Shown one piece after another: positions 5,165-46,888 of a stretch of 46,888 nucleotides of DNA. Location: contig NZ_CBTK010000077.1 of assembly GCF_000531125.1 (NCBI RefSeq), positions 1 through 46,888 of the forward strand, written 5' to 3'. This DNA is from Candidatus Contendobacter odensis Run_B_J11 (GTDB taxonomy: Bacteria; Pseudomonadota; Gammaproteobacteria; Competibacterales; Competibacteraceae). The notes under the pieces are model-generated. The model was not told where the DNA came from, searched no databases, and saw only the letters and a list, made by a program, of their open reading frames with translations. The first letter of the stretch is position 1, and every line of letters starts with the position of its first letter. The position numbers were made by a program, and so were the translations under genes.

Positions 5165-7507
5165 ATGATCGAACAAGCTGAGAGTTCATTCCAAGGCGTT
5201 GCAGTGACCGAAGTAGCCGAAGTAGCCGAAGTAGCCGAAGTAGCCGAAGTGGCTGAAATGGCTGAAATGGCTGAAGTGACCGAAGTGGTTGAAGTGGCTA
5301 AAACGCGATCACGCCCTGGCCGCCACAAACACGATGATCAGCCGCTCGTGGCAGCGCCGGGCACGCCGGACGAACCGCCGCCAATCCTCAATCCCGATGC
5401 ACCAGAATGGTATCTGAACCGCGAGTTGACCTGGCTGGCGTTCAATCAGCGGGTGCTGCATGAGGCGCAGGACGAGCGCACTCCGCTGTTGGAGCGGGTC
5501 AAGTTTTTGGCTATTGTCAGCTCCAATCTGGACGAGTTTTTCATGAAGCGCATTGGTGGCCTCAAGCAGCAAATCGGGGCACGGGTGCGGGAACTGACGG
5601 TAGACGGGCGCAGCCCCGAACAGCAGTTGAGCGAATGCCTGGTGGTGGTGCGCGACATTGTGGAGCAGCAGCGGCTGTTATCCTCCCATCTGCACCGGCT
5701 GTTGAAGGCGCAGGGCATCGTGCTGCGCAGCTACCAGCGGCTGGCGGAGCCGCAGCGTAAGCAAATGCGCGATTACTACCTGCGCAATATCTTCCCGCTG
5801 GTCACGCCGCAGACCATGGACCCGGCGCACCCGTTCCCGTTCCTGTCCAACCTGTCGCTCAATTTGTTGGTGACGGTGCGCTATGCCAACGATGAATCCA
5901 GCGGGCTGACACGAATCAAGGTGCCGGTAGGTTCGGGCATTCCGCGCTTTCTCAAGGTCGGCGACGAGGAGTTATACGTCCCGCTGGAGGAGGTGATCGC
6001 CCACAATCTCGATCTGCTGTTTCCGGGCATGGTGATCGAAGCCTGTGAATTGTTCCGCGTCACCCGCAACGCGATTGCCGAGCGCGACGAGGACCAGGCC
6101 GACGATATGCTGGTGATGATCGAGTCGGAACTGCGCGAACGTCGGTTCGCGCCCATTGTCCGGCTGGAAGTGGAAAAAAACATGGATCCGTACCACCGAG
6201 GGATGCTGGCCGCTGAACTGGGGTTGGAAGAGGCTACTGAGGTCTTCGAAGTCGACGGGATGATGGCGCTGCGCGATCTGTTTCAGGTTGTCGGCATCAA
6301 CCGACCCGAACTGCACGATCCGTCACAACATCCGCTCGATCATCCCAAGCTGGGCGACAAAAAGCGCAACATCTTTCATATCATCCGCGATACTGGACCG
6401 ATCCTGTTGCAGCATCCTTATGAGTCGTTTGCGACTTCGGTGGAGCGGTTTGTGCTGGAAGCCAGCGACGATCCGAAAGTGTTGGCGATCAAGATGACCT
6501 TGTATCGCACCTCGTCGGATTCCAAGATCATCGAGTATCTGATCGACGCCGCGCAGGACGGCAAGCAGGTGACGGTAGTGGTGGAATTGAAAGCGCGCTT
6601 CGACGAGGCGGCCAATATCCGCTGGGCCAACCGGCTGGAGGAAGCCGGCATCCATGTCACTTATGGCGTGGTGGGACTGAAAACTCACAGCAAGGTGATT
6701 CTGGTAGTGCGGCGCGATTTCAACGGCCTGCGCCGTTATGCCCATATCGGCACCGGCAACTATCACGCCGGCACTGCCCGCCTCTATTGCGATCTGGGTC
6801 TGCTGACCTGCGATCCGGCGATTGGCGAGGATTTGACCGAGCTGTTCAATTATCTGACCACCGGTTATGTCCCCAAGCGTAACTACCGGAAGTTGCTGCC
6901 GGCGCCCAAGGTGCTGAAACCGGCGCTGCTGGATAAGATCGAGCGCGAGATTAACCATGCCAAGGCAGCTAAGCCCGCACTGATTCAGTTCAAAATGAAC
7001 GCGCTGGAAGACAAGGACATTACCGCAGCGCTGTATCGAGCTTCACAGGCTGGGGTCAAGGTGGATTTAATCGTGCGCGATACCTGCCGGCTGCGTCCGG
7101 GTATCGCGGGGCTGTCAGAGAGGGTGCGGGTGATCAGCATCGTCGGGCGGTTTTTGGAGCATACCCGGATTTATTATTTCCTCAATGGTGAGACCGAAGA
7201 GTATTTCATCGGCTCGGCGGATTGCATGAAGCGCAATCTGGAAAGCCGGGTTGAAGTGGTAACGCCGGTGGATCATCCAGAATTGAAGCAGGAGTTACGG
7301 CAGATTCTGGAAGTGCAGCTTAATGACCGACGCACTGCTTGGGACATGCAATCCGATGGCAGCTATGTGCAGCGAATGCCGGGCGAAAACGATGACCTGC
7401 GTGGCTCCCAGCAGATTCTGATCGAACTGGCGGAAAAGCGGCAAAAGGAAGCGCTACGCCTCAAGAAGCGTAAACCCAAGGGTATCGCCCGGCGGGCGGT
7501 GAATTGA
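5165..7507 (+). CDS. ppk1: Polyphosphate kinase 1
   Basis: Membrane-associated enzyme that polymerises the gamma phosphate of ATP into polyphosphate, reversibly. It has the typical PPK1 layout: N-domain (PEWYLNRELTWLAFNQRV from about residue 79), head domain, and two PLD-like C-domains. The two catalytic histidines are visible as LKTHSK (His508, equivalent to E. coli His435) and FLEHTR (His666, equivalent to His592). At 780 residues it is longer than usual (about 690) because of a roughly 75-residue N-terminal extension containing an EVA tripeptide repeat and a basic Pro/Arg/His segment. The gene directly follows pap on the same strand and probably shares its transcript. Confidence 0.97.
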   Translation: MIEQAESSFQGVAVTEVAEVAEVAEVAEVAEMAEMAEVTEVVEVAKTRSRPGRHKHDDQPLVAAPGTPDEPPPILNPDAPEWYLNRELTWLAFNQRVLHEAQDERTPLLERVKFLAIVSSNLDEFFMKRIGGLKQQIGARVRELTVDGRSPEQQLSECLVVVRDIVEQQRLLSSHLHRLLKAQGIVLRSYQRLAEPQRKQMRDYYLRNIFPLVTPQTMDPAHPFPFLSNLSLNLLVTVRYANDESSGLTRIKVPVGSGIPRFLKVGDEELYVPLEEVIAHNLDLLFPGMVIEACELFRVTRNAIAERDEDQADDMLVMIESELRERRFAPIVRLEVEKNMDPYHRGMLAAELGLEEATEVFEVDGMMALRDLFQVVGINRPELHDPSQHPLDHPKLGDKKRNIFHIIRDTGPILLQHPYESFATSVERFVLEASDDPKVLAIKMTLYRTSSDSKIIEYLIDAAQDGKQVTVVVELKARFDEAANIRWANRLEEAGIHVTYGVVGLKTHSKVILVVRRDFNGLRRYAHIGTGNYHAGTARLYCDLGLLTCDPAIGEDLTELFNYLTTGYVPKRNYRKLLPAPKVLKPALLDKIEREINHAKAAKPALIQFKMNALEDKDITAALYRASQAGVKVDLIVRDTCRLRPGIAGLSERVRVISIVGRFLEHTRIYYFLNGETEEYFIGSADCMKRNLESRVEVVTPVDHPELKQELRQILEVQLNDRRTAWDMQSDGSYVQRMPGENDDLRGSQQILIELAEKRQKEALRLKKRKPKGIARRAVN
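5201..5299 (+). repeat. Eleven 9-bp tandem repeats inside ppk1
   Basis: Eleven consecutive 9-bp units, four of them identical (gaagtagcc, 5210-5245), the rest variants such as gaagtggct and gaaatggct. All are in frame and encode Glu-Val-Ala-like tripeptides near the N-terminus of PPK1. Copy-number change would alter protein length in steps of three residues without breaking the frame. Confidence 0.95.
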
Positions 7508-24380: not shown

Positions 24381-24504
24381 TGAACAGGACTTTCGCCAAG
24401 CCCCTTAAATTCGTCATACCCGCGAAAGCGGGTATCCAATTTTTTCAGTGGCTTACTGGATTCCCGCTGACGCGGGAATGACGGAAAGCGAAAGTCCTGT
24501 TGAA
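24381..24504. repeat. Dispersed REPIN/MITE-like repeat, full copy
   Basis: About 124 bp with outer inverted ends: tgaacaggactttcgcc at the left and gcgaaagtcctgttgaa at the right. Inside are two hairpins: cgtcatacccgcgaaagcgggta and attcccgctgacgcgggaat. The right half is almost identical to 284-339. Tail fragments (gaagcgaaagtcct-like) also lie at about 7597 and 25725. Non-coding. Confidence 0.8.
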
Positions 24505-24956: not shown

Positions 24957-25073
24957 GCAACACTCCGACCGGATAACTTCCTGTTATTTCTTGCTCGAAA
25001 AATTGGGTCCTGTAAATTTTCCTGTGATGGCGAGGGTTAGCAGCGCCAGGCTAAGGCGTTGACTGCATCTAAC

Positions 25074-25391
25074 CTATTGATCCAACCAAGTGATATTCAT
25101 TTTACCTGCCTGCCCCACAATTCCGATCACAGGAAAATTTACAGGAGGAAAAATTGCTTGTTGGACAATTTTTAGCGCCTGATCAAAAGGCAACGATTCT
25201 ATTTGCTTCGAGTATCGCTGGGCGGCCTCTGTGACACGTTGTTCAATCAGGGTTAGGATAGGAGTCAGTAACATAGGCTGGGAGTGTACCCCATCCCCGA
25301 CCATCTTCCACTGGTACAGCGCATCCTTGTCTTCCTTGTACACCGCTTCCAGAGTATCCCCCTCTTTGATAATGCGATTAAGTTTCTCCAC
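25074..25391 (-). pseudogene. Unrecognised frame within phage-head gene remnants
   Basis: A 105-codon frame opening at a GTG. I recognise no family. It begins KLNRIIKEGDTLEAVYKEDKDALYQWKMVG and ends with a stretch of hydrophobic residues (PVIGIVGQAGKMNI). It is in the same frame as the gpF-like segment upstream, separated by one stop. The first 30 residues are duplicated at 24048-24258. Probably the middle part of a decayed phage gene. Confidence 0.45.
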
Positions 25392-28118: not shown

Positions 28119-31100
28119 ATGCTGAATCTCAAGCCGAACCATAAAGCGATTCGCGGTTATTACCAGGAAGTTGAAAGCCTGCGTCAAGCAGGAGCCGTTC
28201 ACGAAGGGGCCACTGCTCCAGCTTTCGCCAGTTTATTACGGCATTGCGCCGGACAATTTCCCCATTTGCGATTGATTGAGCAATATCCGCTGCCGCGTCT
28301 TAATCGCCGACCGTTGCGGGTGGATGGGGTGATTGTGGATAGTTTCATGTTGCGGTTGGGCGTGTGGGAAGCCAAAGACAATCAGGATGATTTACAACGG
28401 GAGATTCCGAAGAAATTCGCTGCCGGTTATCCCAAAGACAATATCCTGTTTCAATCGCCAGAACGATTGATTTTGTGGCAGAACGGGCGAGAAACCTTCG
28501 ATGTGGATATGCGCCAGCCAGAGGCGTTGATTGAGGGTTTGCAGCAGTTTTTCGGTTATCAGCCGCCTGCTTATGCGCAATGGCAGGAAGCCGTTATTGG
28601 TTTCAAAGGCAAAGTGCAGGAGTTGGGGCAAGCGTTGCTGGCGATTATTGCCCAGGAGCGGCTTAAAAATCCGGGATTCGTGGCGGCGTTTGAGGGATTT
28701 TTTCAATTATGCCGCGATGCGGTGAATCCGAATCTATCCGTGCGAGCAGTTGAAGAAATGCTGATTCAGCATGTATTAACCGAGCGGATTTTTCGCAAAG
28801 TGTTTAACAATCCCGATTTTGTCGCCAAGAATGTGATCGCCCGCGAAATCGAGAAAGTGATTGCCGCGTTGACTGCCCGTTCGTTCAGTCGTGAACAGTT
28901 TTTACGCGGTCTGGATCATTGTTATCGGGCACTCGAAATCACCGCCGCGACGATTGAAGATTATCGGGAAAAGCAGAGTTTTCTGAATGCGGTTTACGAG
29001 CAGTTTTTTCAGGGCTTTGCTATTGATGTCGCCGATACTCACGGCATTGTTTACACCCCGCAACCGCTGGTCGATTTTATGGTGCGGTCGGTGGCGGAAC
29101 TGTTGCAGCGGGAATTTGGCCGGTCGCTGTCGGATCGCGGGGTGCATCTTCTCGATCCATTTGTTGGAACCGGCAATTTTATCACCCGGATTTTGCGGGA
29201 GATCGATCCGGTGGCGCTGAAAGAGAAGTACGCCGAGGCGCTGCATTGCAATGAATTGTTGCTGCTGCCCTATTACATCGCCAGCCTGAATATCGAACAT
29301 GCCTATTTTGAAGCCACCGGCGACTATCAGCCGTTTGAAGGCTTGTGTCTGGTGGATACCTTTGAATTGGCGGAAGATCGCCAACATGCGTTTGGGTTTC
29401 TCACAGCGGAAAATACCGAGCGGGTGAACCAGCAAAAAGCCGCACCCATTTTCGTGATTATCGGCAATCCGCCGTATAACGCCGGACAGGTTAATGAAAA
29501 CGACAATAACAAGAATCGTAAATACCCGGTGGTGGATCGCTGGGTGGCCGAACGCTATGCAGCAGGTTCCAAAGCCACTAATAAGAATGCGCTGAGCGAT
29601 CCGTATGTTAAAGCCTTTGCCTGGGCGACCGAGCGGTTGCGGAAACAGCCGCAGGGTATGATCGCTTTCGTCACTAATAATGGCTTCCTGGAAGGGATTG
29701 CTTTTGATGGAATGCGTAAACGCCTGGCTGAAGAGTTCTCCAGTATTTATTTATTGGATTTGGGCGGCAACGTGCGTAAAAATCCTAAATTGTCCGGCAC
29801 TACCCATAATGTATTTGGGATTCAAGTCGGCGTGTGCATCAGCTTTCTGGTGAAAAAGGAACTATCGAAGTCAACCCGTATTTATTACGCCCGCACTGAT
29901 GAGTTCTGGCGCAAAGAGGAGAAATATAAATTTCTGGAACAGCAGGATCACTACGCAAACGTGGAGTGGCGAGAAATTCAGCCGGATAAAAAAGAGACTT
30001 GGCTGACTGAAGGGCTACAGGCTGATTTTGAGAGCTTTGCCGCGCTGGGCAGCAAAGAACAAAAAGCCAATACGCAAGAAACCGAAGGCGTGATCTTCAG
30101 GATTTTTAGCAATGGCGTTAAAACTAATCGAGATACCTGGGTTTATAATTTCAGCGCTATTGAGCTTGCCAAAAATATTAAAAAGACGATGGAAAGCTAT
30201 AACGATCATGTTTTGAAGTGGAAAAGTCTGATTGAAAAACCCAAGATAGACGATTTTGTTTCTTATGACGATAGAAAAATTAGTTGGAGTCGCGATCTTA
30301 AACTGGATTTAGAGCGCTGTAAGTTTGCTGAATTTCATAAGGATAAAATAAGAAACTCTTTATATCGCCCATTCAGCAAAAAGAGTCTTTTCTTTGACAG
30401 GGTAATGAACGAAGAGGTCTATGTTTTTCCCTCCATTTTTCCCGATGTGTCATCAGAGCAGGAAAACAGAGTTATTTGTCTACCCAGTATTGGAGGAAGA
30501 ACCGGTTATTGGTGTATCTGTACGAATATTATTCCCAATTTATCGATCATTACCGTAGATGCTAACCAATGCTTCCCCTTCTACACCTACAGCGAAGACG
30601 GGCAAAACCGCCGGGAGAACATCAGCGATTGGGCGCTGGATGCTTTTCGCCAGCATTACCACGATTCCAGCATTGATAAATGGGCTATTTTTCACTACGT
30701 CTACGGCTTGCTGCATCATCCCGCATACCGCCAGAAATACGCCGCCAATCTCCGCCGTGAATTGCCACGCATTCCTTACGCCCCGGATTTCCGGGCCTTT
30801 TGCCACGCCGGACAGGAATTGGCGGCGCTGCATGTCGATTACGAACAGCAGCCGGAATATCCATTGAAACGCATTTATGCGCCTGGCCAGTCGCAGGATT
30901 GGCAAGTGCGGAAAATGCGCCTGAACCCGGATAAAACCGCCTTGATTTACAACGACTGGCTGATGCTGACTGGCATTCCCGCTGAAACCTTTGACTATCG
31001 GCTCGGCAATCGCTCGGCGCTGGATTGGGTGATTGAGCAATATCAGGTGAAGACTGACCCGCGCAGCGGAATTATCAACGATCCCAATCGCCCCGACGAT

Positions 31101-31190
31101 CCGCATTATATCTTGCGCTTAATCGCTCAAGTGATTCAGGTCAGCGTCGAGACGGTGCGGGTAGTGAAGACGCTGCCGGATAAGATTTAG
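28119..31190 (+). CDS. Nuclease-methyltransferase fusion, type ISP/IIG-like restriction enzyme
   Basis: A 1023-residue single-chain restriction-modification protein. The N-terminal PD-(D/E)xK-like nuclease has RVDGVIVD (Asp69) and GVWEAKDN (Glu84, Lys86). A helical linker runs from about 150 to 330. The N6-adenine methyltransferase has motif I DPFVGTGNF (from about residue 346) and motif IV NPPY (residue 450). The C-terminal half resembles the type ISP specificity domain (LPRIPYAPDFRAFCHAGQELAALH; YEQQPEYPLKRIYAPG; NRSALDWVIEQYQVKTDPRSGI). Unlike LlaGI-type ISP enzymes (about 1500 residues or more) there is no helicase domain, so it should cut without translocation, or be the ISP-like fragment of a system. 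No Shine-Dalgarno is obvious. AT-richer in its middle than neighbouring genes; likely acquired. Confidence 0.85.
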   Translation: MLNLKPNHKAIRGYYQEVESLRQAGAVHEGATAPAFASLLRHCAGQFPHLRLIEQYPLPRLNRRPLRVDGVIVDSFMLRLGVWEAKDNQDDLQREIPKKFAAGYPKDNILFQSPERLILWQNGRETFDVDMRQPEALIEGLQQFFGYQPPAYAQWQEAVIGFKGKVQELGQALLAIIAQERLKNPGFVAAFEGFFQLCRDAVNPNLSVRAVEEMLIQHVLTERIFRKVFNNPDFVAKNVIAREIEKVIAALTARSFSREQFLRGLDHCYRALEITAATIEDYREKQSFLNAVYEQFFQGFAIDVADTHGIVYTPQPLVDFMVRSVAELLQREFGRSLSDRGVHLLDPFVGTGNFITRILREIDPVALKEKYAEALHCNELLLLPYYIASLNIEHAYFEATGDYQPFEGLCLVDTFELAEDRQHAFGFLTAENTERVNQQKAAPIFVIIGNPPYNAGQVNENDNNKNRKYPVVDRWVAERYAAGSKATNKNALSDPYVKAFAWATERLRKQPQGMIAFVTNNGFLEGIAFDGMRKRLAEEFSSIYLLDLGGNVRKNPKLSGTTHNVFGIQVGVCISFLVKKELSKSTRIYYARTDEFWRKEEKYKFLEQQDHYANVEWREIQPDKKETWLTEGLQADFESFAALGSKEQKANTQETEGVIFRIFSNGVKTNRDTWVYNFSAIELAKNIKKTMESYNDHVLKWKSLIEKPKIDDFVSYDDRKISWSRDLKLDLERCKFAEFHKDKIRNSLYRPFSKKSLFFDRVMNEEVYVFPSIFPDVSSEQENRVICLPSIGGRTGYWCICTNIIPNLSIITVDANQCFPFYTYSEDGQNRRENISDWALDAFRQHYHDSSIDKWAIFHYVYGLLHHPAYRQKYAANLRRELPRIPYAPDFRAFCHAGQELAALHVDYEQQPEYPLKRIYAPGQSQDWQVRKMRLNPDKTALIYNDWLMLTGIPAETFDYRLGNRSALDWVIEQYQVKTDPRSGIINDPNRPDDPHYILRLIAQVIQVSVETVRVVKTLPDKI

Positions 31191-35876: not shown

Positions 35877-36926
35877 TTAACAAATCCTTGGTAATTGCTC
35901 TCCGCTCAGCCAATCCACCAAGCGTCGCCCGCCAAATACGGTTTCCATCTCCACGAAGCCGTGCGCATCCGTTACTACCGATCCAATGATTGCCGCTTCC
36001 TGCCCCAATGAATGCGCCCGCATCACCGCTAATAACGGATCGGCGCATTCCGCCGGACAAATCGCCAATAATTTGCCCTCATTGGCGACATAAAGCGGGT
36101 CCAATCCCAGAAATTCACACAGGGCGCGCACCGGTTCATGCACCGGAATCGCGGCCTCGTGCAATCGCATTCCGACCCCGGATTGTTGGGCGATTTCATT
36201 CAGGGCGCTGCCCAAACCGCCGCGAGTGGGATCGCGCAGACAATGCAGTTCTGGCGCAACCGCCACCATTGTCGCCACCAAACCATGCAACGCGGCAGTA
36301 TCGGACACAATCGGCGCGTCGAAACTCAGATTTTCCCGTTGCGCCATCACCGCCATGCCGTGATCGCCCAGCGAACCACTAAGCAAAATGGCGTCGCCCG
36401 GTTGCGCCCGGCTGGCGGAAATATTCACTCCAGGCGGAACCACACCAACGCCGGTAGTGGTAATAAACACCCCGTCGCCCTTGCCACGCTCGACCACTTT
36501 GGTATCGCCGGTCACTATCGGCACTCCCGCTTGCCGCGCTGCCTGCGCCATTGAATCGACAATGCGCTGCAAATCCGCCAGCGGAAAGCCTTCTTCGAGA
36601 ATGAAACTGGCAGCGAGATATAGCGGTTGCGCTCCAGCCATGGCCACATCGTTAATCGTGCCGTGAACCGACAGACAGCCAATGTCACCGCCGGGAAAGA
36701 ACAGCGGCGATACCACATGGCTGTCAGTCGCCATTACCAGCCGCCCAGCGGGAACATTGAATTGGGCGCAATCATCCTGAGTCCGCAACCATTCATTATC
36801 AAAAGCCGTCAGGAACACTTCCTCAATCAATTGCGCCATGGCCCGACCCCCGCCGCCATGACTGAGTTCGACGCTGCCGTGAATAAAATCGAGTTTGCGG
36901 GTGAATAACTTGCGCGAAGGGATCAT
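35877..36926 (-). CDS. hypE: Hydrogenase maturation protein HypE
   Basis: Dehydrates the carbamoyl group placed on its C-terminal cysteine to thiocyanate, the source of the CN ligands of the NiFe site. Length is 349 residues. It has the PurM-like fold motifs HGGGGRAM, ATDSHVVSPLFFPGGDIG, VTGDTKVVERG, SGSLGDHGMAV and RDPTRGGLG. It ends in the obligatory PRIC. The ATG at 36926 overlaps the hypD stop by 4 nt (ATGA), giving translational coupling. The frame is open far upstream but only because it crosses hypD. Confidence 0.97.
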   Translation of the reverse strand: MIPSRKLFTRKLDFIHGSVELSHGGGGRAMAQLIEEVFLTAFDNEWLRTQDDCAQFNVPAGRLVMATDSHVVSPLFFPGGDIGCLSVHGTINDVAMAGAQPLYLAASFILEEGFPLADLQRIVDSMAQAARQAGVPIVTGDTKVVERGKGDGVFITTTGVGVVPPGVNISASRAQPGDAILLSGSLGDHGMAVMAQRENLSFDAPIVSDTAALHGLVATMVAVAPELHCLRDPTRGGLGSALNEIAQQSGVGMRLHEAAIPVHEPVRALCEFLGLDPLYVANEGKLLAICPAECADPLLAVMRAHSLGQEAAIIGSVVTDAHGFVEMETVFGGRRLVDWLSGEQLPRIC

Positions 36927-38068
36927 GCAGATACGCCGGGTGATGGGGTGCGGAAGCGGCCATAGTGGTAATGGGCAGCGCAGGCGCCTTCCGCCGATAC
37001 CATGCAGGACCCAAGCGGATGATCGGGGGTACAGACGGTAGCAAACACTTTGCACTGTTCCGGGCGCTTGACCCCGCGCAGCACTTCGGCGCAGGCGCAG
37101 GCTTTGTGGTCGGTGGTCGCCACCACCGGCACGATAAAGCGGCGTTCGGTATCCCATTCGGCATATTCGGGCCGGATCGTCAGCGCGCTATTCGGTAACT
37201 CGCCCAAGCCGCGCCATTCAAAACTCGGTCGCAAGGTAAACACTTCGGCGACGATGCTTTGCGCCTTGCGATTGCCTTCCGGGCTAACAGCGCGGGTGTA
37301 TTCGTTCTCGATCCGGGCCTCACCCGCATTCACCTGGCGAATCAGTAATAAAATCGCCTGCAACACGTCCAGCGGCTCGAAGCCGGCAATGACCAGCGGG
37401 CGGTGATATTCAGTGGCAACGAATTGATAGGGATCGCTGCCGATAATGGTACTGACATGAGCCGGGCCGATACAGCCATCCAGTTGAATTGGCGCAGGCG
37501 ATTCAGCCGTATGATGCGTCGCCAGAATGGCCCGTAATGCCGGTGGAGTGAGAACGTGATTGCAATAGGCGCTGAAATTGTGCAGCCCTTCAGCCTTGGC
37601 GTGCAGAATGGCAACAGCGGTTGGCGGCGTGGTGGTTTCAAAGCCAATAGCGAAAAACACTACCGGCTGATCAGGATGAGCGCGGGCAATATCCAGCGCA
37701 TCGCTGACCGAATAAACCATGCGCACATCTACCCCCCGCGCCTTGGCTTGAAGCAGAGTGTCACCTTGCGCGCCGGGCACCCGTAATAAATCGCCGTAAC
37801 TGCACAAAATCACTCGCTCCCGTTCGGCCAATTCGATTACGGCTTGCAAGCGTCCACTTGGCAACACGCACACCGGACAACCGGGGCCATGAATCAACCG
37901 CACATTCGACGGTAGCAAATCCTCGATGCCGTAGCGGCAAATAGCGTGAGTGTGACCGCCGCAAAATTCCATCAGCGCATAGCCGCGCTCTGGATTCACT
38001 TCCTGGCGAATGCGGGCGGCGAGACCTTGCGCCAAGCGACCATCACGAAATTCATCAATATATTTCAT
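36923..38068 (-). CDS. hypD: Hydrogenase maturation protein HypD
   Basis: 4Fe-4S scaffold on which, with HypC, the Fe(CN)2CO unit is built. Length is 381 residues. Conserved cysteine motifs are MEFCGGHTHAICRYG, HGPGCPVCVLP and the C-terminal CACAEVLRGVKRPEQC with TPDHPLGSCMVS. The start MKYIDEFRD is typical. Gene order hypC-D-E, with 9 nt to hypC and a 4-nt overlap with hypE. Confidence 0.98.
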   Translation of the reverse strand: MKYIDEFRDGRLAQGLAARIRQEVNPERGYALMEFCGGHTHAICRYGIEDLLPSNVRLIHGPGCPVCVLPSGRLQAVIELAERERVILCSYGDLLRVPGAQGDTLLQAKARGVDVRMVYSVSDALDIARAHPDQPVVFFAIGFETTTPPTAVAILHAKAEGLHNFSAYCNHVLTPPALRAILATHHTAESPAPIQLDGCIGPAHVSTIIGSDPYQFVATEYHRPLVIAGFEPLDVLQAILLLIRQVNAGEARIENEYTRAVSPEGNRKAQSIVAEVFTLRPSFEWRGLGELPNSALTIRPEYAEWDTERRFIVPVVATTDHKACACAEVLRGVKRPEQCKVFATVCTPDHPLGSCMVSAEGACAAHYHYGRFRTPSPGVSA

Positions 38069-38077
38069 GGCGGAGCG

Positions 38078-38308
38078 TCAGGCCGGATCCGCCACTGCGG
38101 CAAATTCCGTGAACAGGCGCAGCGTTTCAGCGGCTTCCTCCGGGTCCAAACGGTTGAGGGCATAACCGACATGGACGATGACGTATTCGCCGACGGTGAG
38201 ATCGTCCACTAACGCGGTGGAAATCAGTTTGCGTACACCACCGGTATCCACTACGGCGTGTTCAGCATCAACAACTTCAATGACTTGGGCGGGAATAGCG
38301 AGGCACAT
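38078..38308 (-). CDS. hypC: Hydrogenase maturation chaperone HypC (copy 1)
   Basis: A 76-residue HypC/HybG/HupF-family chaperone that carries the iron unit and binds the large-subunit precursor. It begins MCLAIPAQVIEV with the essential Cys2 and has VGEYVIVHVGYALNRLDPEEA. The ATG at 38308 is chosen because Cys must directly follow the initiator; the frame's upstream extension is not conserved. It opens the minus-strand hypCDE run. Confidence 0.95.
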   Translation of the reverse strand: MCLAIPAQVIEVVDAEHAVVDTGGVRKLISTALVDDLTVGEYVIVHVGYALNRLDPEEAAETLRLFTEFAAVADPA

Positions 38309-38667
38309 GAGCAATGGCTCTCCAGAAAGACGGCGTGTGATGGTGAAAGGAGGCGCGGACATGGTGCCCGCACCGCGCTCCCCTAAGCTTAGATCACTGG
38401 TGTTCTGTTCACGAGCCGGAAGCCCGTGCCATGTTTCCGCAACTCAAATAGGATTGCCATATATATGGGGTTGACACTGATTCTGTCTTTCACTCATTAA
38501 AGTGCGGTTCCATTGCAAAAGGGGGTGACCTGGCAAAATTCAGTTTGAGTTAAGGTTCACGCAGTATAAACATTCCTTAAAAGTTAAGGAATCCGAGTAT
38601 GATTATAATTAACTAATTGACTTAAAACAACTTTTAATTAAAACAAAGTTTTTTGAGGTTCCCAAAA
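38309..38667. promoter_or_regulatory. Divergent regulatory region between hypC and the hydrogenase cassette
   Basis: About 360 bp separating hypC (minus) from the protease gene (plus), with no coding frame I can support. The right half is AT-rich. It contains the 9-bp palindrome attccttaa-aag-ttaaggaat (38572-38592), a possible operator for the plus-strand cassette, 75 nt before its first gene. I found no convincing sigma-54 (GG-N10-GC) site in either direction. Confidence 0.5.
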
Positions 38668-39219
38668 ATGAATGATGTAGATCCAGCTATGGACTCTGAG
38701 GATTTATTAACCCATGTCCATCGCTGTGTGATATTGGGCATCGGCAATCCATTGATGGGAGATGATGGAGTGGGCATCCATGTGATACGCGACTTGCTGG
38801 CCAAGCCTGCTGCTCTCGCGTTCACGGGGGGAACTATCGAAATCCTGGATGGAGGAACCTTGGGCTATCTGCTCATTGATCGTCTGGCCGGAACGGATGC
38901 GTTGATCGTGGTGGATGCGGCCAACATCGGGAAAAGTGCCGGTGAGGTTCAGCTCTTTTTGAACAAGGAAATGGATGGGTTCCTCAGCCAGAATCAGACC
39001 TCGAGCGTACACGAAGTGGGCTTGGTGGATTTGGTGCAGATGATGACCTTGATGGGGCAAATGCCCCGGCACCGAGCGCTGGTAGGAATCCAGCCCTCGA
39101 TAATCGACTGGGAAACCGAATTATCGCCTTCGTTGGCTCAAAGTGTGGCTAAAGCGAGCGATAAAATTATTCATATAGTATCGAAATGGTACGGAGTGAG
39201 TACGCAATGCCCCATTTAA
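38668..39219 (+). CDS. Hydrogenase maturation protease (HyaD/HupD family)
   Basis: Endopeptidase that removes the C-terminal tail of the large subunit after nickel insertion. Length is 183 residues. GIGNPLMGDDGVGIHV (Glu/Asp nickel-sensing region) and SSVHEVGLVDL with the third ligand His are present. The ATG at 38668 is favoured (GAGG about 9 nt before); the frame opens at a TTG five codons earlier. It is the first gene of the plus-strand hydrogenase cassette and overlaps the next gene by 13 nt. Its substrate is presumably the large subunit encoded at 40860. Confidence 0.93.
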   Translation: MNDVDPAMDSEDLLTHVHRCVILGIGNPLMGDDGVGIHVIRDLLAKPAALAFTGGTIEILDGGTLGYLLIDRLAGTDALIVVDAANIGKSAGEVQLFLNKEMDGFLSQNQTSSVHEVGLVDLVQMMTLMGQMPRHRALVGIQPSIIDWETELSPSLAQSVAKASDKIIHIVSKWYGVSTQCPI

Positions 39220-39659
39220 GCGACATTCCAGTTTGTGTTGATCTTAACGACAACAAAGAGAGCAATCTTGCCATTGCTAAAACGGTTCTGAACGAGATTA
39301 GGGCATTGATCGCGCAACTGATTAATTCAGGGAAGACCGGCGCGATAGATTTGAGACAACGGCCACGGATGCGGGCGGAAACCTATCAATATCTCAAGGA
39401 TGCGTTGTCTTCGGGCGAGGTGACCGCCGTAGTTGATGCTGCGGTAAAAGTCGAGGTTAGGGAAACGCGATATCCCGGCGTGTGGTGGTTGACTCACCTT
39501 AACGAGCAGGGGGCTATCGTTACCGAAATCATCGAAATCACCGAAATCCCGGAAATTCTGAAGCCTCATATTGCCGACATGCGTGCTGGTTTGAAACGGT
39601 TTGACCAAATTTTGGCAGACTTTACATCGCATGAAGAATCGCCGACGACGTTGAACTAG
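39207..39659 (+). CDS. HupH/HyaF C-terminal-like hydrogenase expression protein
   Basis: A 150-residue protein. Its middle and C-terminal parts (LKDALSSGEVTAVV, EVRETRYPGVWWLTHLN, EIIEITEIPEILK) follow the C-terminal domain of HupH/HyaF/HoxQ, which helps process the small subunit's iron-sulfur clusters or its export. Full HupH is about 280 residues; here the N-terminal domain is absent. The ATG at 39207 has GGAGTGAG upstream and overlaps the protease stop. It lies right before the small-subunit gene, consistent with a role on that subunit. Confidence 0.75.
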   Translation: MPHLSDIPVCVDLNDNKESNLAIAKTVLNEIRALIAQLINSGKTGAIDLRQRPRMRAETYQYLKDALSSGEVTAVVDAAVKVEVRETRYPGVWWLTHLNEQGAIVTEIIEITEIPEILKPHIADMRAGLKRFDQILADFTSHEESPTTLN

Positions 39660-39732
39660 ACTCATATTGATCTAGGATTGATGTAGCTGAACCATCCTGG
39701 AGCCGAGTAAGCAACCACGAGGAGTTACGGTA

Positions 39733-40785
39733 ATGAATAAAGATCTGGATCTGCCCGAAAGATCGAAGGCCCCGGTGAATTTGGCCGAGGACACCATTCT
39801 CGACGAAGCCACCGTGAGCCGATTACTCGAACTCGGCATCAGCCGGCGGGGTTTTTTGTCGTTCTGCACCGGCATGGCGTCGCTGATGGTTTTGCCGCAA
39901 GCCATGATACCGAAGCTGGCAGCAGCGGCGACCGCTCCGACAAAACCATCGGTCGTCTACATGTCGTTTCAGGAATGCACCGGCTGTCTGGAGTCGCTGG
40001 TGAACTCGTTCGCCTTTCGGGGCGGCACCACCATTGACAATCTGATTCTCAACATGATTTCGCTGGATTATCAGGAAACCCTGATGGCAGCGGCCGGTTA
40101 TCAGGCGGAAGATTTGCTCAAGACCGTCACCAGCAAGCCAGGTTATGTGCTGGTGGTGGACGGATCGATTCCTGCCAAATGGGATAGCGGTTATTTCGTT
40201 AGCGGGGGTAGAAGCGGGGTCGCCCGATTCCGCGATGCGGCAAAAAATGCAGGCTTAATTATCGCGGTGGGGACTTGCGCGAGTTTCGGTGGGCTACCCA
40301 AAGCTGATCCTAACCCGACCGGCGCTGTTTCGATCAGCGAGTTAATGGCGAGTCTTGGCATCAGGAAGCCTTTGATTAACGTACCCGGATGCCCGCCAAT
40401 TCCAGAGGTGATTACCGGCGTCATCCTGTATTACCTGGCCAGCGGAATGCCAAGTCTGGATAGTCTCTACCGACCCACGATGTTCTATGAGAAAACGGTT
40501 CACGATGAATGTTATCGCGAAGAGTCTTTCGAGGATGGGCCTTTTGCCCTGACTTTTGACGATGCCAATGCCCGAAAAGGCGGATGCCTGTTTAAGCTGG
40601 GTTGTAAAGGTCCGGCCACTCATAACGCCTGTTCGACGATTAAGTGGAACCAGGGCACCAGTTTTCCGATGATGTCAGGACATGGCTGTATCGGTTGCGC
40701 GGAGCCGGACTTCTGGGATCGCATTAACTTGAATGGCAAAAAGGGCTTTTACGTTCAATTAGCTCATGGTGGCGACGATGATTGA
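39733..40785 (+). CDS. [NiFe] hydrogenase small subunit, group 1, Tat-exported
   Basis: Electron-transferring subunit, 350 residues. A Tat signal with SRRGFLSF (Arg38-Arg39) follows an unusually long 37-residue n-region; the hydrophobic part ends near AAAATA. Iron-sulfur ligands: ECTGCLES (Cys82, Cys85), VGTCASFGG, NVPGCPP for the proximal cluster; HDECYR, GGCLFKLGCKG, NACSTIKWN and GCIGCAEPDFWD for the others. The extra cysteines of O2-tolerant enzymes (CTCCSES, WGCV) are replaced by Gly, so the standard O2-sensitive type is expected. The protein ends about 20 residues after the last cysteine motif, without the C-terminal membrane helix of uptake hydrogenases. GAGGAG precedes the ATG. Confidence 0.95.
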   Translation: MNKDLDLPERSKAPVNLAEDTILDEATVSRLLELGISRRGFLSFCTGMASLMVLPQAMIPKLAAAATAPTKPSVVYMSFQECTGCLESLVNSFAFRGGTTIDNLILNMISLDYQETLMAAAGYQAEDLLKTVTSKPGYVLVVDGSIPAKWDSGYFVSGGRSGVARFRDAAKNAGLIIAVGTCASFGGLPKADPNPTGAVSISELMASLGIRKPLINVPGCPPIPEVITGVILYYLASGMPSLDSLYRPTMFYEKTVHDECYREESFEDGPFALTFDDANARKGGCLFKLGCKGPATHNACSTIKWNQGTSFPMMSGHGCIGCAEPDFWDRINLNGKKGFYVQLAHGGDDD

Positions 40786-40859
40786 GTGGGTTTCGGCCAA
40801 ATTGATTCCGTGATTTGTACTGCGCACACCTGCAAAAATAGAAGGCTAGGAGAACGAAA

Positions 40860-42701
40860 ATGGCTACACCGAATGTCATCATCGATCCCGTGACTCGTAT
40901 TGAGGGTCACTTGCGGATACAGGCTTACGCCATACCCGACGGCAAGGGAGGGGGCACGATTAAAGATCCCGGCCTCAGTGCAAGTACGATGGTGCGGGGA
41001 GTCGAGCAAATCCTCAAAGGCCGCGATCCGCGAGACGCCTGGGCGTTTACCCAACGGATTTGCGGGGTATGCACCGTGGTGCATGGGTTGACCTCAGTAC
41101 GCGCCGTGGAAAACGCTATCGGCATCAAAGTATCGAAAAATGCCGACTACATCCGTAACATGATGATCGGCGCTCAATATGTTCACGATCACGTTATGCA
41201 CTTCTACCATCTCCATGCCTTGGATTGGGTGGATGTGGTGAGTGCCCTGAAAGCTATTCCCGCTAACACCGCCAGTTTGTCCGCAAAAAATAATCCTAAC
41301 TACAAGCCTAATAATGGCAAGCTTCCCGATGCCATTTATTTCCAGAATGTTCTGGACCGGTTGAATGGCTTGGTAAACCGGGGGCAACTCGGTTTATTCG
41401 CCAATGGCTATTGGGGTCATTCCGCTTACAAGCTAAGCCCGGAAGAGAACCTGTTACTGGTTTCCCATTACCTGGAAGCACTCGGCTGGGCGCGGGAAGT
41501 GGTAAAGCTTCATACGATCTTTGGCGGCAAAGACCCGCACCCTAATCTGGTAGTCGGTGGCATGCCCTGTACCCTGAGCAGCAACACCGGTCCTGTCAGT
41601 GAGGATAAAGGTGGAACTTCGCTCAACACCGCAGGGTTAGCGATTATCAAGAAGTCGGTTGATACGATGAAAACCTTTGTTGACCAGGTTTATCTCCCCG
41701 ACGTGGTTTTGGTGGCGACAAAATACAAGGAGTGGGCGGATTACGGCGCAACCGAAGGAAACTTTCTGTGTTTTGGTGAGTTCCCGGATCCAGCACTCGT
41801 TAAAAAAGAGTTTGTGGATGGCGCTATTGATTATCCAGCCGGTTATGTATTTCCACCTGGGGTTATTTGGGCGAATAATCTCAATGGGTTGTTTCCCTTC
41901 GACGAGTCCAAGGTGACTGAGAATGTCGCTCATGCCTGGTATAGCGGTTCGGATGCTGGCGCACACCCTTCAGTGGGTTCGACGGTACTCAACTACACCG
42001 GGCCGGCTCCCGATAGCGCGAGCTACATGCTCGATGAATCAAAGCGGTATTCCTGGATCAAGTCGCCGCGCTACAACGGTCAACCGATGGAAGTCGGGCC
42101 TCTGGCCCATATCCTGATGATGCATGCGCGGAACACGTTGGATACCGACAAACAAGTACGCACCGGCGTCGCGCAATACTGGACTGGCGCGTTGAAACTT
42201 GGTTTCGATCAGCTCAATTCAACTCTGGGCCGAATCTTCTGCCGTATGCTGGAAACCAAGATCATCGCCGACCAAATGGCGAACTGGTATCAACGCTATG
42301 AAGCCAACAAGGCGGGCGCTTATTGGAATCCCAACACCTTTACCCGCCTGACGCAGCCCAAATCGTGGCCCAAGAGCGTCGGATTCGGTTTCACCGAGGC
42401 ACCGCGGGGCGCGCTTGGACACTGGGTAAAAATAAATCCCACCACCTACATGATCGATAACTATCAGTGTATCGTTGCCAGCCAATGGAATGCCGGTCCC
42501 CGCGATGCCAAAGGCATCGAAGGTCCCTACGAACATGCGTTAGTCGGTCATGTCCTGGCCGATGTCAAAAAACCGCTGGAAGTCCTGCGCACGATCCATA
42601 GTTTCGATCCCTGCATCGGCTGCGCCGTCCATATCGTGGATTCAGAAGGCCAGCCCCTGGTTCAAGTAGAGGTCAACCACAGCTACAGGTCATTGTCATG
42701 A
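40860..42701 (+). CDS. [NiFe] hydrogenase large subunit, group 1
   Basis: Catalytic subunit with the NiFe(CN)2CO site, 613 residues. N-terminal VIIDPVTRIEGHLR, nickel ligands in RICGVC (Cys68, Cys71) and in DPCIGC (Cys585, Cys588) are all present. After DPCIGCAVH (His591) follows a 22-residue tail, the substrate of the maturation protease. It is carried through the Tat pathway by the small subunit. The spacer to the small-subunit gene is 75 nt, without isp1/isp2. AGGAG precedes the ATG. The 3' end overlaps hupE by 4 nt. Confidence 0.97.
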   Translation: MATPNVIIDPVTRIEGHLRIQAYAIPDGKGGGTIKDPGLSASTMVRGVEQILKGRDPRDAWAFTQRICGVCTVVHGLTSVRAVENAIGIKVSKNADYIRNMMIGAQYVHDHVMHFYHLHALDWVDVVSALKAIPANTASLSAKNNPNYKPNNGKLPDAIYFQNVLDRLNGLVNRGQLGLFANGYWGHSAYKLSPEENLLLVSHYLEALGWAREVVKLHTIFGGKDPHPNLVVGGMPCTLSSNTGPVSEDKGGTSLNTAGLAIIKKSVDTMKTFVDQVYLPDVVLVATKYKEWADYGATEGNFLCFGEFPDPALVKKEFVDGAIDYPAGYVFPPGVIWANNLNGLFPFDESKVTENVAHAWYSGSDAGAHPSVGSTVLNYTGPAPDSASYMLDESKRYSWIKSPRYNGQPMEVGPLAHILMMHARNTLDTDKQVRTGVAQYWTGALKLGFDQLNSTLGRIFCRMLETKIIADQMANWYQRYEANKAGAYWNPNTFTRLTQPKSWPKSVGFGFTEAPRGALGHWVKINPTTYMIDNYQCIVASQWNAGPRDAKGIEGPYEHALVGHVLADVKKPLEVLRTIHSFDPCIGCAVHIVDSEGQPLVQVEVNHSYRSLS

Positions 42702-43282
42702 AAACGAGAACACTGCTTTTATCCGGCGTCGCCGGTATCGGATTCCTGTTTGCCAATAGCGTTTCCGCACACACTTTTGGCGCTCATGGTGCCGGATTTG
42801 GCGAGGGACTGGCGCATCCCCTCCTGGGAATTGACCATCTGTTAGCCATGATCGCGGTGGGTTTCTGGGCCGCGCAACTGGGCGGAAAAGCCTTGTGGCA
42901 GGTGCCTCTGGCGTTTGTCGCGATGATGGCCGGCGGCGCCTTAATTGCGAACATCGGGATTGACGCTTCGCTGGTCGAAGCCATGATTGCAGCCTCAGTG
43001 ATATTTCTGGGGCTGATGATTGCGGGTTCGATCAAGTTGCCCCCCTCAGTGAGCGTGATCGTGGTATCGGCATTTGCGCTGTTTCATGGTTATGCGCATG
43101 GACTGGAAATGCCGCAGGCGGGCGCTCCACTGGCTTACGGGGCCGGATTCGTGCTGGCGACCGGGTGCCTGCATCTGATTGGCGTCGGGCTGGGCATATC
43201 CGCGAGCCGGATGCGGATTCTGACGCGGGTTGGCGGGGCAGCTATCGCCGCGACCGGCCTTTATCTCCTCGTCGGCGCATAA
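42698..43282 (+). CDS. hupE: HupE/UreJ nickel permease-like protein
   Basis: A 194-residue membrane protein with a signal sequence (MKTRTLLLSGVAGIGFLFANSVSAH) and about six helices. Signature motifs are HPLLGIDHLLAMIAVGFWA and ALFHGYAHGLEMP. HupE proteins mediate nickel entry. The overlap with the large-subunit gene (ATGA) shows the same operon. Confidence 0.94.
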   Translation: MKTRTLLLSGVAGIGFLFANSVSAHTFGAHGAGFGEGLAHPLLGIDHLLAMIAVGFWAAQLGGKALWQVPLAFVAMMAGGALIANIGIDASLVEAMIAASVIFLGLMIAGSIKLPPSVSVIVVSAFALFHGYAHGLEMPQAGAPLAYGAGFVLATGCLHLIGVGLGISASRMRILTRVGGAAIAATGLYLLVGA

Positions 43283-43315
43283 ACCTTTGTCCACTGACCT
43301 TGGGATACTCCGATC

Positions 43316-43552
43316 ATGTGCCTTGCTATTCCGATGCAGATCACTCACATCAACGGTTTTGATGCCCGCTGTTCGGCCAAAGGCGCTGGGCGCGATGTCA
43401 GCCTCTTCATGTTGCAGGACGAGCCGGTCGGAGTGGGAGACTGGGTGCTGATCAACGCCGGTTACGCCCTGCAAAAAATCAGTGCTGAGGAGGCGCGGGA
43501 GTCCTGGGAGCTATTCGATCAGATACTGGCCGGGGATGCAGTGAGTGCATGA
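43316..43552 (+). CDS. hypC: HypC-family chaperone (copy 2, HupF-like)
   Basis: A 78-residue HypC paralogue with MCLAIPMQITHI (Cys2) and VGDWVLINAGYALQKISAEEA. It is clearly different in sequence from copy 1 at 38078-38308, so not a recent duplicate. It lies in the hydrogenase operon after hupE and may be the dedicated large-subunit chaperone, as HupF or HybG are. Its last codons overlap the start of hypA copy 2 (GTG 43545). Confidence 0.93.
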   Translation: MCLAIPMQITHINGFDARCSAKGAGRDVSLFMLQDEPVGVGDWVLINAGYALQKISAEEARESWELFDQILAGDAVSA

Positions 43553-43907
43553 ACTCTCGCTCTGCCAGAATTTAATCGATCAGCTCACCGACCTGACCAA
43601 CACCCATCATGCGGTCGCCGTGGCGCGGGTTGAGGTCCAGGTCGGGGTACTTTCCGGGGTTGAGGCGCAACTGCTGCAAAGCGCCTTTACCTTAGCCAGA
43701 GCCGGAACCGTCGCCGATGCGGCGGAACTGATCACCGAGGTGACGACACCCCGAGTGTCCTGCCGCTGGTGCGGTGCCGAATCCGACACCCCGCCCAATA
43801 ACCTATGTTGCCTCGCCTGCGATAGCTTCGATACCCAACTGATCCGTGGGCATGAACTGATCCTCGCGCGGGTTGAACTGGTCAAAAATGAGCCGTTAAC
43901 CCTGTAG
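43545..43907 (+). CDS. hypA: Nickel metallochaperone HypA (copy 2)
   Basis: Delivers nickel to the large subunit with HypB. Length is 120 residues. The N-terminal MHELSLC holds the nickel-binding His2. The zinc site is CRWC, then CCLAC after about 16 residues. The start is a GTG (43545) inside the end of hypC; the conserved MHEL N-terminus makes this secure. It is divergent from hypA copy 1 (45773-46114). Confidence 0.93.
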   Translation: MHELSLCQNLIDQLTDLTNTHHAVAVARVEVQVGVLSGVEAQLLQSAFTLARAGTVADAAELITEVTTPRVSCRWCGAESDTPPNNLCCLACDSFDTQLIRGHELILARVELVKNEPLTL

Positions 43908-43935
43908 TTCGTCAACCCAATAAAGACCGATTGAT

Positions 43936-44784
43936 ATGTGCAATACCTGTGGATGTAACCTTAGCGACGGTAATCGTCACCTGCTCAGTCCTCCCCTGAA
44001 TCGCGGGGCATCGGGTTCCACCCCGGAGAAGATTCTGAACGGCCTGCTGGAACACAATGACCGCCAGGCCCGGATCAATCGGGCCCGGCTTGATGCGCAG
44101 GGCGTCCTGACCATCAACCTGATGTCTTCGCCCGGTTCCGGCAAAACGTCGCTGTTGGAGGCGACCATCCGTGTCCTGGAGGGCAGGCTTCGGATCGGCG
44201 TCATCGAGGGCGATCTGGAGACTGAGAACGACGCCGACCGAATCCGCGCCCTGGGAGTTCCCGCCCACCAGATCACCACCGGTACCGCCTGTCATCTGGA
44301 CGCGCACCTGATTCATGGCGCCCTCGATCAGCTCGATCTGGCGCAGCTCGATATTCTGTTTATCGAGAATGTCGGTAATCTGGTGTGTCCTGCCAGTTTC
44401 GATCTGGGTCATCACCGCAACGTGATCCTGCTGTCGGTGACCGAGGGCGACGACAAGCCTGCCAAATACCCGGTCATGTTCCGGGCCGCCGATCTCATGC
44501 TGATCAGCAAGACCGACCTCTTGCCTTATCTGCCTGAATTCTCGCCGGATCGAGCCGAGCGGTGTTTGCGCCATCTGGCTTCGATGGTGCCCACGCTGCA
44601 TCTGTCCGCCCGATCCGGAGCCGGCGTGGCCGACTGGATCGAATGGCTGGCAGCGGAACGGGACGGTTACTGCGAGTTGTTGAACAGGCACCAGACCTTG
44701 ACGCCACGGGTCGAATCCGAGGGCCGCAAATTGCACGCTCCAAGTCCCCGCATCACCTTCAGGCCGCTTGCCTCGACGAGCTGA
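43936..44784 (+). CDS. hypB: GTPase HypB (copy 2)
   Basis: SIMIBI GTPase for nickel insertion, 282 residues. An N-terminal CNTCGC motif is followed, without any His-rich stretch, by the P-loop [33 protein letters not shown] (metal site at the dimer interface), [17 protein letters not shown] and SKTDLLPY. The C-terminus has an extra roughly 40-residue tail beyond the usual end. It is last in the plus-strand cassette and converges with hypB copy 1, 115 nt away. Confidence 0.95.
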   Translation: MCNTCGCNLSDGNRHLLSPPLNRGASGSTPEKILNGLLEHNDRQARINRARLDAQGVLTINLMSSPGSGKTSLLEATIRVLEGRLRIGVIEGDLETENDADRIRALGVPAHQITTGTACHLDAHLIHGALDQLDLAQLDILFIENVGNLVCPASFDLGHHRNVILLSVTEGDDKPAKYPVMFRAADLMLISKTDLLPYLPEFSPDRAERCLRHLASMVPTLHLSARSGAGVADWIEWLAAERDGYCELLNRHQTLTPRVESEGRKLHAPSPRITFRPLASTS

Positions 44785-44899
44785 TACCCATTCCAACTCG
44801 ATGCCGGAAAATTTACCGGAGGAAATCGTGCAGCGTAGACAGCAGGCGGGACCTTAAGAATCTCGATAGGAGTGTGGGCGTGGCTGGGAATAAGCAGCG

Positions 44900-45772
44900 T
44901 TAACTGCTACTGCGCGCCAACCGCGCTCGGGCGGCGGCTAACTCCGTTTCCAACACCTCAATCTGCTGCGCCACTGCGGTTTGTTGCCCTTGGCGCACCC
45001 AGTCCAGCCAAGCGCCCATCCCTTCGCCGGTGCGAGCCGACAGTTGCAGAATTTGGAGATCGGGATTGACCCGCCGGGCGTATTCTAGACAGCGGGCCAC
45101 ATCGAACTCCACATAAGGCAGCAAATCGATTTTATTGAGCAGCATCAACCGGGCAGCGGCGAACATGTTGGCGTATTTCAGCGGTTTGTCCTCACCCTCG
45201 GTTACCGACAAAATCACCACCTTGCAGGCTTCGCCCAAATCAAAATCAGCGGGACAGACCAAGTTACCGACATTTTCGATAAACAAGGTTCCGCCTTCGG
45301 GTAATGGCAATTGCTCCAGGGCGTGACCGATACTGTGAGCATCAAGGTGGCAACCTTTACCGGTGTTGATTTGTAGCGCGGGCGCTCCGGCGGCACGGAT
45401 GCGCTCGGCATCGTGGGCGGTTTGCTGATCGCCGCCGATCACCGCCACTGGAAATTCATCACGCAACACCTGAACTGTGCGGCTAAGCAGCGTGGTTTTG
45501 CCAGAACCGGGGCTGGAGACCAAATTCAATGCAAACACACTCCGCGCCGCAAACAGTCGCCGGTTGCCCGCCGCGTATCCATCGTTTTTCGCCAGAATAT
45601 CCTGCTCAATCGCGACCAGGCGACTCTCGGTCATGGGGCTGTGGGAAAGTACATCAGCGCCATGCCCGTGAGTGTGATCATGATCATGACTGTGATCGTG
45701 AGAGTGATCATGGGCGTGATGATCGGCGTTAATGCTAATTTCACCGTTACCGCAACCGCATACGCTGCACAT
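44900..45772 (-). CDS. hypB: GTPase HypB (copy 1), with His-rich nickel-storage region
   Basis: A 290-residue HypB. N-terminal CSVCGCG is followed by a His/Asp-rich segment (about residues 17-38, [13 protein letters not shown]), which stores nickel in other HypBs. The GTPase motifs are [51 protein letters not shown] and NKIDLLPY. The ATG directly follows the hypA stop. A typical HypB C-terminus is followed by a helical, Ala/Arg-rich tail. Confidence 0.96.
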
Positions 45773-46114
45773 TTACTCAACCTCCAGTTCTTTAATTCGC
45801 ATTTCCGTACCGCTCAGCAGTCGCCATTGATAACCGCCGCAGAGTGGACAGGGATCAAAATGCTGTTGTACCGCCACGGTTTGCGCGCAATCCAGACAAT
45901 GGGCGCGCCCCGGCAAAGTAATGATCTCCAATTCCGCTGTTGCCGCAATGGTATCGCAGCGGATCGCTGCAAAGGCGAAGCGCAAGGACTCCGGTTCGAC
46001 ATTAGCCAGTTCGCCGATTTCCAGCCACACCCGCAGCACCCGTTTGAATCCGCGCTGATGGACTTGGGTGGTAATGGTTTCGATGATGCCTTCACAGAGC
46101 GAAAGTTCATGCAT
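45773..46114 (-). CDS. hypA: Nickel metallochaperone HypA (copy 1)
   Basis: A 113-residue HypA with MHELSLCEGI (His2) and zinc motifs CLDC and CPLC 13 residues apart. It is adjacent to hypB copy 1 with no gap. Together with hypCDE at 38308-35877 on the same strand it would make a standard hypABCDE order if the plus-strand hydrogenase cassette between them were removed. Confidence 0.95.
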   Translation of the reverse strand: MHELSLCEGIIETITTQVHQRGFKRVLRVWLEIGELANVEPESLRFAFAAIRCDTIAATAELEIITLPGRAHCLDCAQTVAVQQHFDPCPLCGGYQWRLLSGTEMRIKELEVE

Positions 46115-46678: not shown

Positions 46679-46888
46679 TCACCATCCGTCTTTGAGAGAC
46701 CTTCTCCACAAGACCCCTCGAAGAACCATAATTTTAAGATGTTTAATCGCCTGCCAATCAACACCATTAGCAATAGAGCGATCAATAATTCCTCGTACCG
46801 CTTCATAGCCCATTCCCTCTTTAATACGGACATCCCAAACCGTACTATTGACACAGGCTAACAACACCTGTTTCTCAAACGCTCGGGT
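46679..46888 (-). pseudogene. Partial ISL3-like transposase, continues past the window edge
   Basis: The frame is open to the end of the window. FEKQVLLACVNSTVWDVRI, GMGYEAVRGIIDRSI and VDWQAIKHLKI correspond to the stretch just before the first catalytic Asp in ISL3-type transposases (LKxxGIDExxxKKGH). After LKI the frame leaves the family pattern and ends soon, so the catalytic core is lost or in another frame. A C-terminal fragment of the same family is at 14882-15229. Confidence 0.5.

Follow-up and report, generated by a model that had tools for sequence, protein, structure and literature searches.

Ralstonia eutropha carries duplicated hypA, hypB, and hypF genes, and its two hypAB sets serve different hydrogenases without being interleaved in the way described below. 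A single Escherichia coli Hyp set serves three hydrogenases, each of which needs its own protease (PMC6181927), and according to the same account the MIC hydrogenase island of Methanococcus maripaludis is laterally mobile and unstable, encoding exported subunits and its own protease while needing host Hyp proteins. Here we analyze a [NiFe] hydrogenase module flanked by resident hyp maturation genes in Candidatus Contendobacter odensis Run_B_J11 (genome G000; 4.6 Mb in 319 contigs, 99.5% complete). The window is the entire contig G000:C77, 46,888 bases long. Compared genomes are labeled G and loci L, each with a number: G001 to G007 belong to the same genus as G000; G011, G021, and G026 to another genus; and G032 and G035 to another genus of the same family. 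With moderate confidence, we favor a reading in which a foreign, truncated hydrogenase module lies between resident hypAB and hypCDE units, hypCDE has kept an older leader, and maturation of the module enzyme is hybrid.

The resident genes all lie on the minus strand. One unit (46114–44900) consists of hypA1 (45773–46114; PF01155, E 2.8e-34), encoding a nickel metallochaperone, and hypB1 (44900–45772; PF02492, the CobW/HypB domain, E 2.6e-23), encoding a nickel GTPase; the other (38308–35877) consists of hypC1 (38078–38308; TIGR00074, E 1.9e-22), hypD (36923–38068; TIGR00075, E 7.7e-144), and hypE (35877–36926; TIGR02124, E 5.6e-141). Between them, on the plus strand, come genes for a maturation protease (38668–39219; TIGR00072, E 1.3e-36; start picked by reading, with the longest open reading frame (ORF) running from 38653), a HupH-like protein (39207–39659, alternative start 39186; PF04809, HupH_C, E 4.3e-22), the hydrogenase small subunit (39733–40785; TIGR00391, E 1.3e-103), the large subunit (40860–42701; PF00374, E 8.6e-192), and HupE, a HupE/UreJ-type membrane protein and probable nickel permease (42698–43282; PF04955, E 5.5e-54), followed by hypC2 (43316–43552; TIGR00074, E 2.5e-21), hypA2 (43545–43907; TIGR00100, E 4.8e-21), and hypB2 (43936–44784; PF02492, E 1.7e-19). 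HypA2 scored 75 bits, under the NCBIfam HypA cut-off of 88.1, and passed the Pfam cut-off of 28.9 with a score of 86.7. Transcription of the block diverges from that of hypCDE and converges on that of hypAB, and reading and local alignment placed the hypB2/hypB1 junction at 44785–44899. From the hypC1 start to the hypB1 stop the gap measures 6,591 bases (38309–44899), in line with the opposite-strand insert of about 6.6 kb described in the initial annotation, all of whose genes, strands, and coordinates held when family profile matches were combined with ORF reading.

Genome-wide searches of G000 found two HypA genes, both inside the window, and one HypD match, the resident copy, while hypF lies outside the window at G000:C26:4382-6640. 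Further large-subunit-like hydrogenase genes occur on contigs C47, C302, and C71, and the C47 cluster has its own hypC. The C302 locus (L061, 3691–10315) holds another hydrogenase-like pair beside a 1182-residue protein that matches histidine-kinase-like ORFs elsewhere; the pair may be a regulatory hydrogenase.

Phylogenetic analyses separated the two sets of hyp genes. The trees sampled 66 of 68 HypB ORFs (those under 140 aa were dropped), all 70 HypA ORFs, and all 67 HypC ORFs. HypA1, HypB1, and HypC1 grouped with the resident type of the family, nearest G003 and G006, with G006 the sister of HypA1 and G003 next. The second copies instead grouped with G032 and G035 beside the Methylococcaceae; window HypB2 joined G032/G035 with support of 100/99, HypA2 took the same position, and HypC2 fell with G032, G035, G028, and G024. 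Within the window, the copies are 30% (HypA), 34% (HypC), and 53% (HypB) identical, and a constraint making the two HypB proteins sisters was rejected by the approximately unbiased (AU) test on 24 chosen HypB rows (p-AU 3.5e-05). A large-subunit tree was built from 93 of 95 ORFs (those under 450 aa were dropped) and a second from 25 rows chosen among those 93. Both trees placed the window protein among Chromatiaceae, and in the second it joined Thiocystis, Lamprocystis, Thiobaca, and Thiodictyon (74–79% identity; clade 100/99). Grouping it with L114 and L115, an arrangement chosen after tree inspection, was rejected (p-AU 4e-4), and its best other match within the family, in G021, reached 54% (39 genomes, 34 with any match). 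Because the trees place copies 1 and copies 2 apart and the large subunit among Chromatiaceae, these sequence relationships identify the block as a xenologous hydrogenase module and rule out local duplication. Although both hyp sets lie within 10 kb of each other, their low identities and separate, well-supported clades leave a local origin of the second set with practically no chance of being correct. The proposal that the block is a self-contained module bringing a hydrogenase and part of a maturation set is thus upheld, and the recent local duplication that the initial annotation had named as its possible refutation, to be sought in HypA, HypB, and HypC trees, fails.

The module is itself composite in its affinities: its hydrogenase half points to the Chromatiaceae and its hyp half to the Methylococcaceae and the window's own family. 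No match to hypA, hypB, hypD, hypE, or hypF was found on the six Chromatiaceae loci (L109–L113 and L124), so the module could still have come from one coherent source. HypB2 of G000 and G032 is 85% identical, compared with 80% for DNA polymerase I, and both descent within the family and exchange within it are therefore possible; a class-wide HypB2 search (369 genomes, E ≤ 1e-110) found nothing closer than 66%. The arrangement is a lateral mosaic of an ordinary kind, comparable gene mosaics being fairly common, and its ancestry is better settled than its direction.

Comparison with the Methylococcaceae indicated what the module lacks. In three of the four loci found there (L115, L117, and L127), protease, hupH, small-subunit, large-subunit, hupE, hypC, hypA, and hypB genes are followed by hypD. 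All four loci have hypD, with hypF next in L114, L115, and L127; L115 and L117 have hypE in divergent orientation, and L114 is without hypC and hypA. The window module ends at hypB2 with no continuation into hypD-hypF, a gene content that marks it as a truncated form of the Methylococcaceae-type cluster. No hypD2 remnant was found past hypB2 in 44740–44900, where the best local score (42, on G032) covers the hypB2 tail. The complementary part of the cluster is present in G032, which has hypC-A-B-D-F and a divergent hypE without such a hydrogenase; loss of the hydrogenase part is thus observed. A decaying hydrogenase precedes an intact hypCDE in G011 (L071, about 5167–6556), consisting of a protease gene in two frames, hupH, and an 87-residue large-subunit remnant, with no small subunit called. 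In L127, from Methylobacter psychrophilus, one cluster contains two module-type hypC copies.

We next consider whether the module split an intact hypABCDE operon. The uninterrupted gene order that the initial annotation had suggested looking for is present in G006, which over most shared DNA (84–92%) is nearest to G000 and in which hypA1-hypB1-hypC1-hypD-hypE are contiguous (79–95% protein identity) and hypB and hypC are 43 bases apart. A seeming break in the G006 hypB1 turned out to be an NN join in the assembly. In G003, hypCDE (91–94%) and hypAB (81–83%) are on separate contigs, with hypAB between Bax1-I and SdhB-like genes and hypCDE preceded by an ORF without a Pfam family; that ORF had been considered as a HigBA pair, an assignment rejected on the Pfam result. 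Among the remaining five genus members, G004, G005, and G007 have another hypD type at 61–62% identity, G001 has a fragment, and no hypD was found in G002.

The hypC1 leader (38309–38392, minus strand) provides a second line of evidence. Homology 5′ of window hypC1 extends to 38351 with G003 and to 38327 with G006. Against G003, the leader gave a local score of 45 with the ribosome-binding site included (shuffle maximum 28 in 300) and of 21 with it excluded, a value matched by 6 of 1,000 shuffles. Against G006, the score without the ribosome-binding site was 14 versus a shuffle mean of 14.2, which is chance. The element CTAAGCT, beginning 84 bases ahead of the hypC1 start codon, is present in five of 19 hypC1-class leaders (G000 at -84, G011 at -83, G021 at -82, G026 at -85, and G003 at -64) and absent from the G006 hypC leader, and in G021 and G011 a hydrogenase large-subunit gene, or what remains of one, precedes the leader. 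A large-subunit fossil 5′ of hypC was also suspected by eye in G026 and G003 and discarded, as a translated search gave only weak FRIDLAA-like matches (E ≥ 0.89). Taken together, these comparisons suggest that the leader of hypCDE probably predates the arrival of the module, and an older leader requires no new promoter. The claim that hypCDE must have gained one is not supported, given both the resemblance of the leader to its counterpart in G003, a genome with hypCDE and hypAB in separate places, and the occurrence of CTAAGCT in another genus. Because G006 is without the leader common to G000 and G003, its contiguous operon, including the 43-base hypB-hypC junction, is more likely derived, through loss of the leader.

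Several observations weigh against this interpretation. With the ribosome-binding site excluded, the window leader scored no better than shuffles against those of G021, G026, and G011 (a fraction of about 0.4 of 1,000), so that a single 7-base element, noticed post hoc, is all that ties it to that genus. The HypC tree pairs G000 with G003 (100/81), the HypA tree pairs G000 with G006 (99/86), and at the DNA level hypCDE shares 86% identity with G003, compared with 75–76% for two other segments; owing to these disagreements, G000 could have acquired hypCDE and its leader together by recombination, in which case the argument from the leader would be weaker. A sigma-70 scan of 38300–38700 found no promoter, and neither the divergent region nor the hypB2/hypB1 junction yielded anything of use when scanned for promoters and terminators. 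Nor does composition single out the module as a recent foreigner among resident and core genes: GC content at third codon positions is 0.55–0.61 in the hydrogenase half, 0.67–0.74 in hypC2A2B2, 0.58–0.62 in the resident hyp genes, and 0.63–0.75 in six core genes.

Of the possible histories, the one in the initial annotation, in which the module split an intact G006-like hypABCDE in the G000 lineage and hypCDE then gained a promoter, appears unlikely. The empty arrangement that insertion predicts is indeed found in G006, whose hypB-hypC junction contains no N and in which searches detected neither the module large subunit nor HypB2. The window leader, however, resembles that of G003 and, beyond the ribosome-binding site, not the G006 spacer, and the module edges showed no identifiable insertion scar such as a transposase or a target duplication, the window ORF list containing no integrase or transposase there. 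The initial interpretation is supported only in part: G006 is contiguous without the module, but its contiguity is likely derived. The strong form of insertion, the splitting of an intact operon, is not supported, while a weak form stands, namely a module between two resident units that are adjacent in the closest relative. A better prospect, though still short of an even chance, is that the common ancestor of G000 and G006 already carried the module between its hypAB and hypCDE units and that a single deletion in G006, with endpoints at the hypB1 stop and roughly 40 bases ahead of hypC, removed module and leader together. Such a deletion accounts at once for the absent leader and the short hypB-hypC spacing, and the family offers other cases of group-1 hydrogenase loss, namely the G011 remnant and the solitary maturation genes of G032. 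Against it, searches of G006 found no module remnant; that assembly has 230 contigs, is 90% complete, and contains NN joins, including one within hypB1. The fuller combination, in which the interrupted order is the older one, the G006 hypABCDE is a deletion scar, and the module still present in G000 depends on hybrid maturation by HypC2 and resident HypD, we put forward tentatively and consider somewhat unlikely as a whole. It is very improbable that hypA1-hypB1, located within the terminal 2 kb of the contig, was wrongly joined to the module in assembly: hypB1 and hypB2 do share a 174-base stretch at 74% DNA identity (via G006) and hypAB is at the contig end, yet the joins fall outside that stretch, hypAB is beside hypCDE in G006 too, the contig has no N runs, and contamination is estimated at 0.96%.

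Under the reading we favor, then, a module of foreign ancestry (protease to hypB2) sits between the resident hypAB and hypCDE units, hypCDE has kept its older leader without needing a new promoter, and the compact G006 operon reflects loss of that leader and may itself be the residue of a deletion that removed this module. The large subunit contains RICGVC and, before a C-terminal extension, DPCIGCAVH, that is, the N- and C-terminal CxxC motifs and a cleavable C-terminus. The small subunit has an SRRGFL motif and then a hydrophobic stretch, which by motif match alone is a twin-arginine translocation (Tat) signal. No Isp-type (group 1e) genes were found between the small- and large-subunit genes, which are 75 bases apart, and the small-subunit tail has no membrane anchor (19-residue hydropathy maximum -0.46). 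Oxygen-tolerant group 1d enzymes have an extra cysteine at the proximal cluster (ECTCC); it is not present in the window small subunit, which reads ECTGCLES. Tail hydropathy was below 0.2 in all nine members of the large-subunit clade (window, L109–L115, and L124) and below 1.0 in 20 of 81 small subunits, one of which, L173, was cut at the wrong place. Given the Tat motif, the absence of a hydrophobic tail, and the absence of Isp genes between the subunits, the enzyme is predicted to be a soluble, exported group-1-type hydrogenase with a standard oxygen-sensitive proximal cluster, and it would pass electrons to a periplasmic carrier. Directly 5′ of hupH in Thiobaca trueperi (L112:7364-8035) is a di-heme cytochrome c gene (PF09626, E 3.3e-31), a candidate electron acceptor, and the small-subunit tails of L112 and of Lamprocystis purpurea (L111), 2 of 74 in the class, combine acidic residues with a CxxCH heme-binding motif. 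This gene and these tails provide hints of a c-type heme electron acceptor for this hydrogenase clade. A literature search on groups 1e/1f and on this gene order turned up nothing direct.

In maturation, the module protease would trim the large-subunit C-terminus, HypA2 and HypB2 would deliver nickel, whose uptake we take to be the function of the hupE product, and HypC2, HypA2, and HypB2 would together deliver to the module enzyme. Since the Fe(CN)2CO ligands must pass via HypD and the genome-wide search found a single HypD, the resident protein, with HypE and the distant HypF, presumably finishes maturation of the module enzyme. Resident HypD is 41% identical to the G032-type HypD, and HypC2 may thus be paired with a HypD that differs from its original partner; alternatively, HypC1 of the resident set may serve the module enzyme. 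A shared HypD fits the shared Hyp set of E. coli (PMC6181927).

Upstream of the protease gene, in the divergent region, a sequence scan identified a perfect 9-base inverted repeat, ATTCCTTAA-AAG-TTAAGGAAT (38572–38592), which is the sole genomic site when up to two mismatches are allowed and is a possible operator. Elsewhere in the window, 28119–31190 encodes a type ISP restriction-modification enzyme (PF18135, E 1e-101) with a GC content of 0.49 compared with 0.56 for the window. A stretch of about 115 bases (24385–24499) has more than 25 matches in G003 and a few in other genomes and resembles a dispersed repeat; a second repeat-like stretch (25008–25151) recurs in G001, G002, and G005. At the contig end 5′ of hypA1, outside the module, 46679–46888 gave a sub-threshold match to an ISL3 transposase helix-turn-helix (E 0.005).

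If our reading is correct, the locus cautions against taking a relative's unbroken operon for the ancestral state, and it offers a natural test of how exact the match among HypC, HypD, and the large subunit has to be. An anchorless hydrogenase clade common to purple sulfur bacteria and methanotrophs also poses the question of its electron partner. The best solved-structure match to both subunits is PDB 3MYR, which we take to be the membrane-bound, Isp-associated hydrogenase of Allochromatium vinosum; in contrast to that enzyme, the window has neither Isp genes nor a small-subunit anchor. The Chromatiaceae loci (L109–L113 and L124) provide the closest large subunits, have adjacent small- and large-subunit genes, and include hupH in four of six cases, but they differ in their missing hyp matches and in their acidic small-subunit tails, two with CxxCH. 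The Methylococcaceae loci L115, L117, and L127 share the order of the window module from protease to hypB, and these three and L114 likewise have a small subunit without a membrane tail; they differ in continuing to hypD (4/4) and hypF (3/4), in the divergent hypE of L115 and L117, and in large subunits only 52–68% identical to that of the window. The M. maripaludis MIC island (PMC6181927) carries Tat genes and no hyp genes and belongs to another host and another enzyme, but it resembles the window module in being a mobile-type hydrogenase module that brings its own protease and leans on host Hyp proteins.

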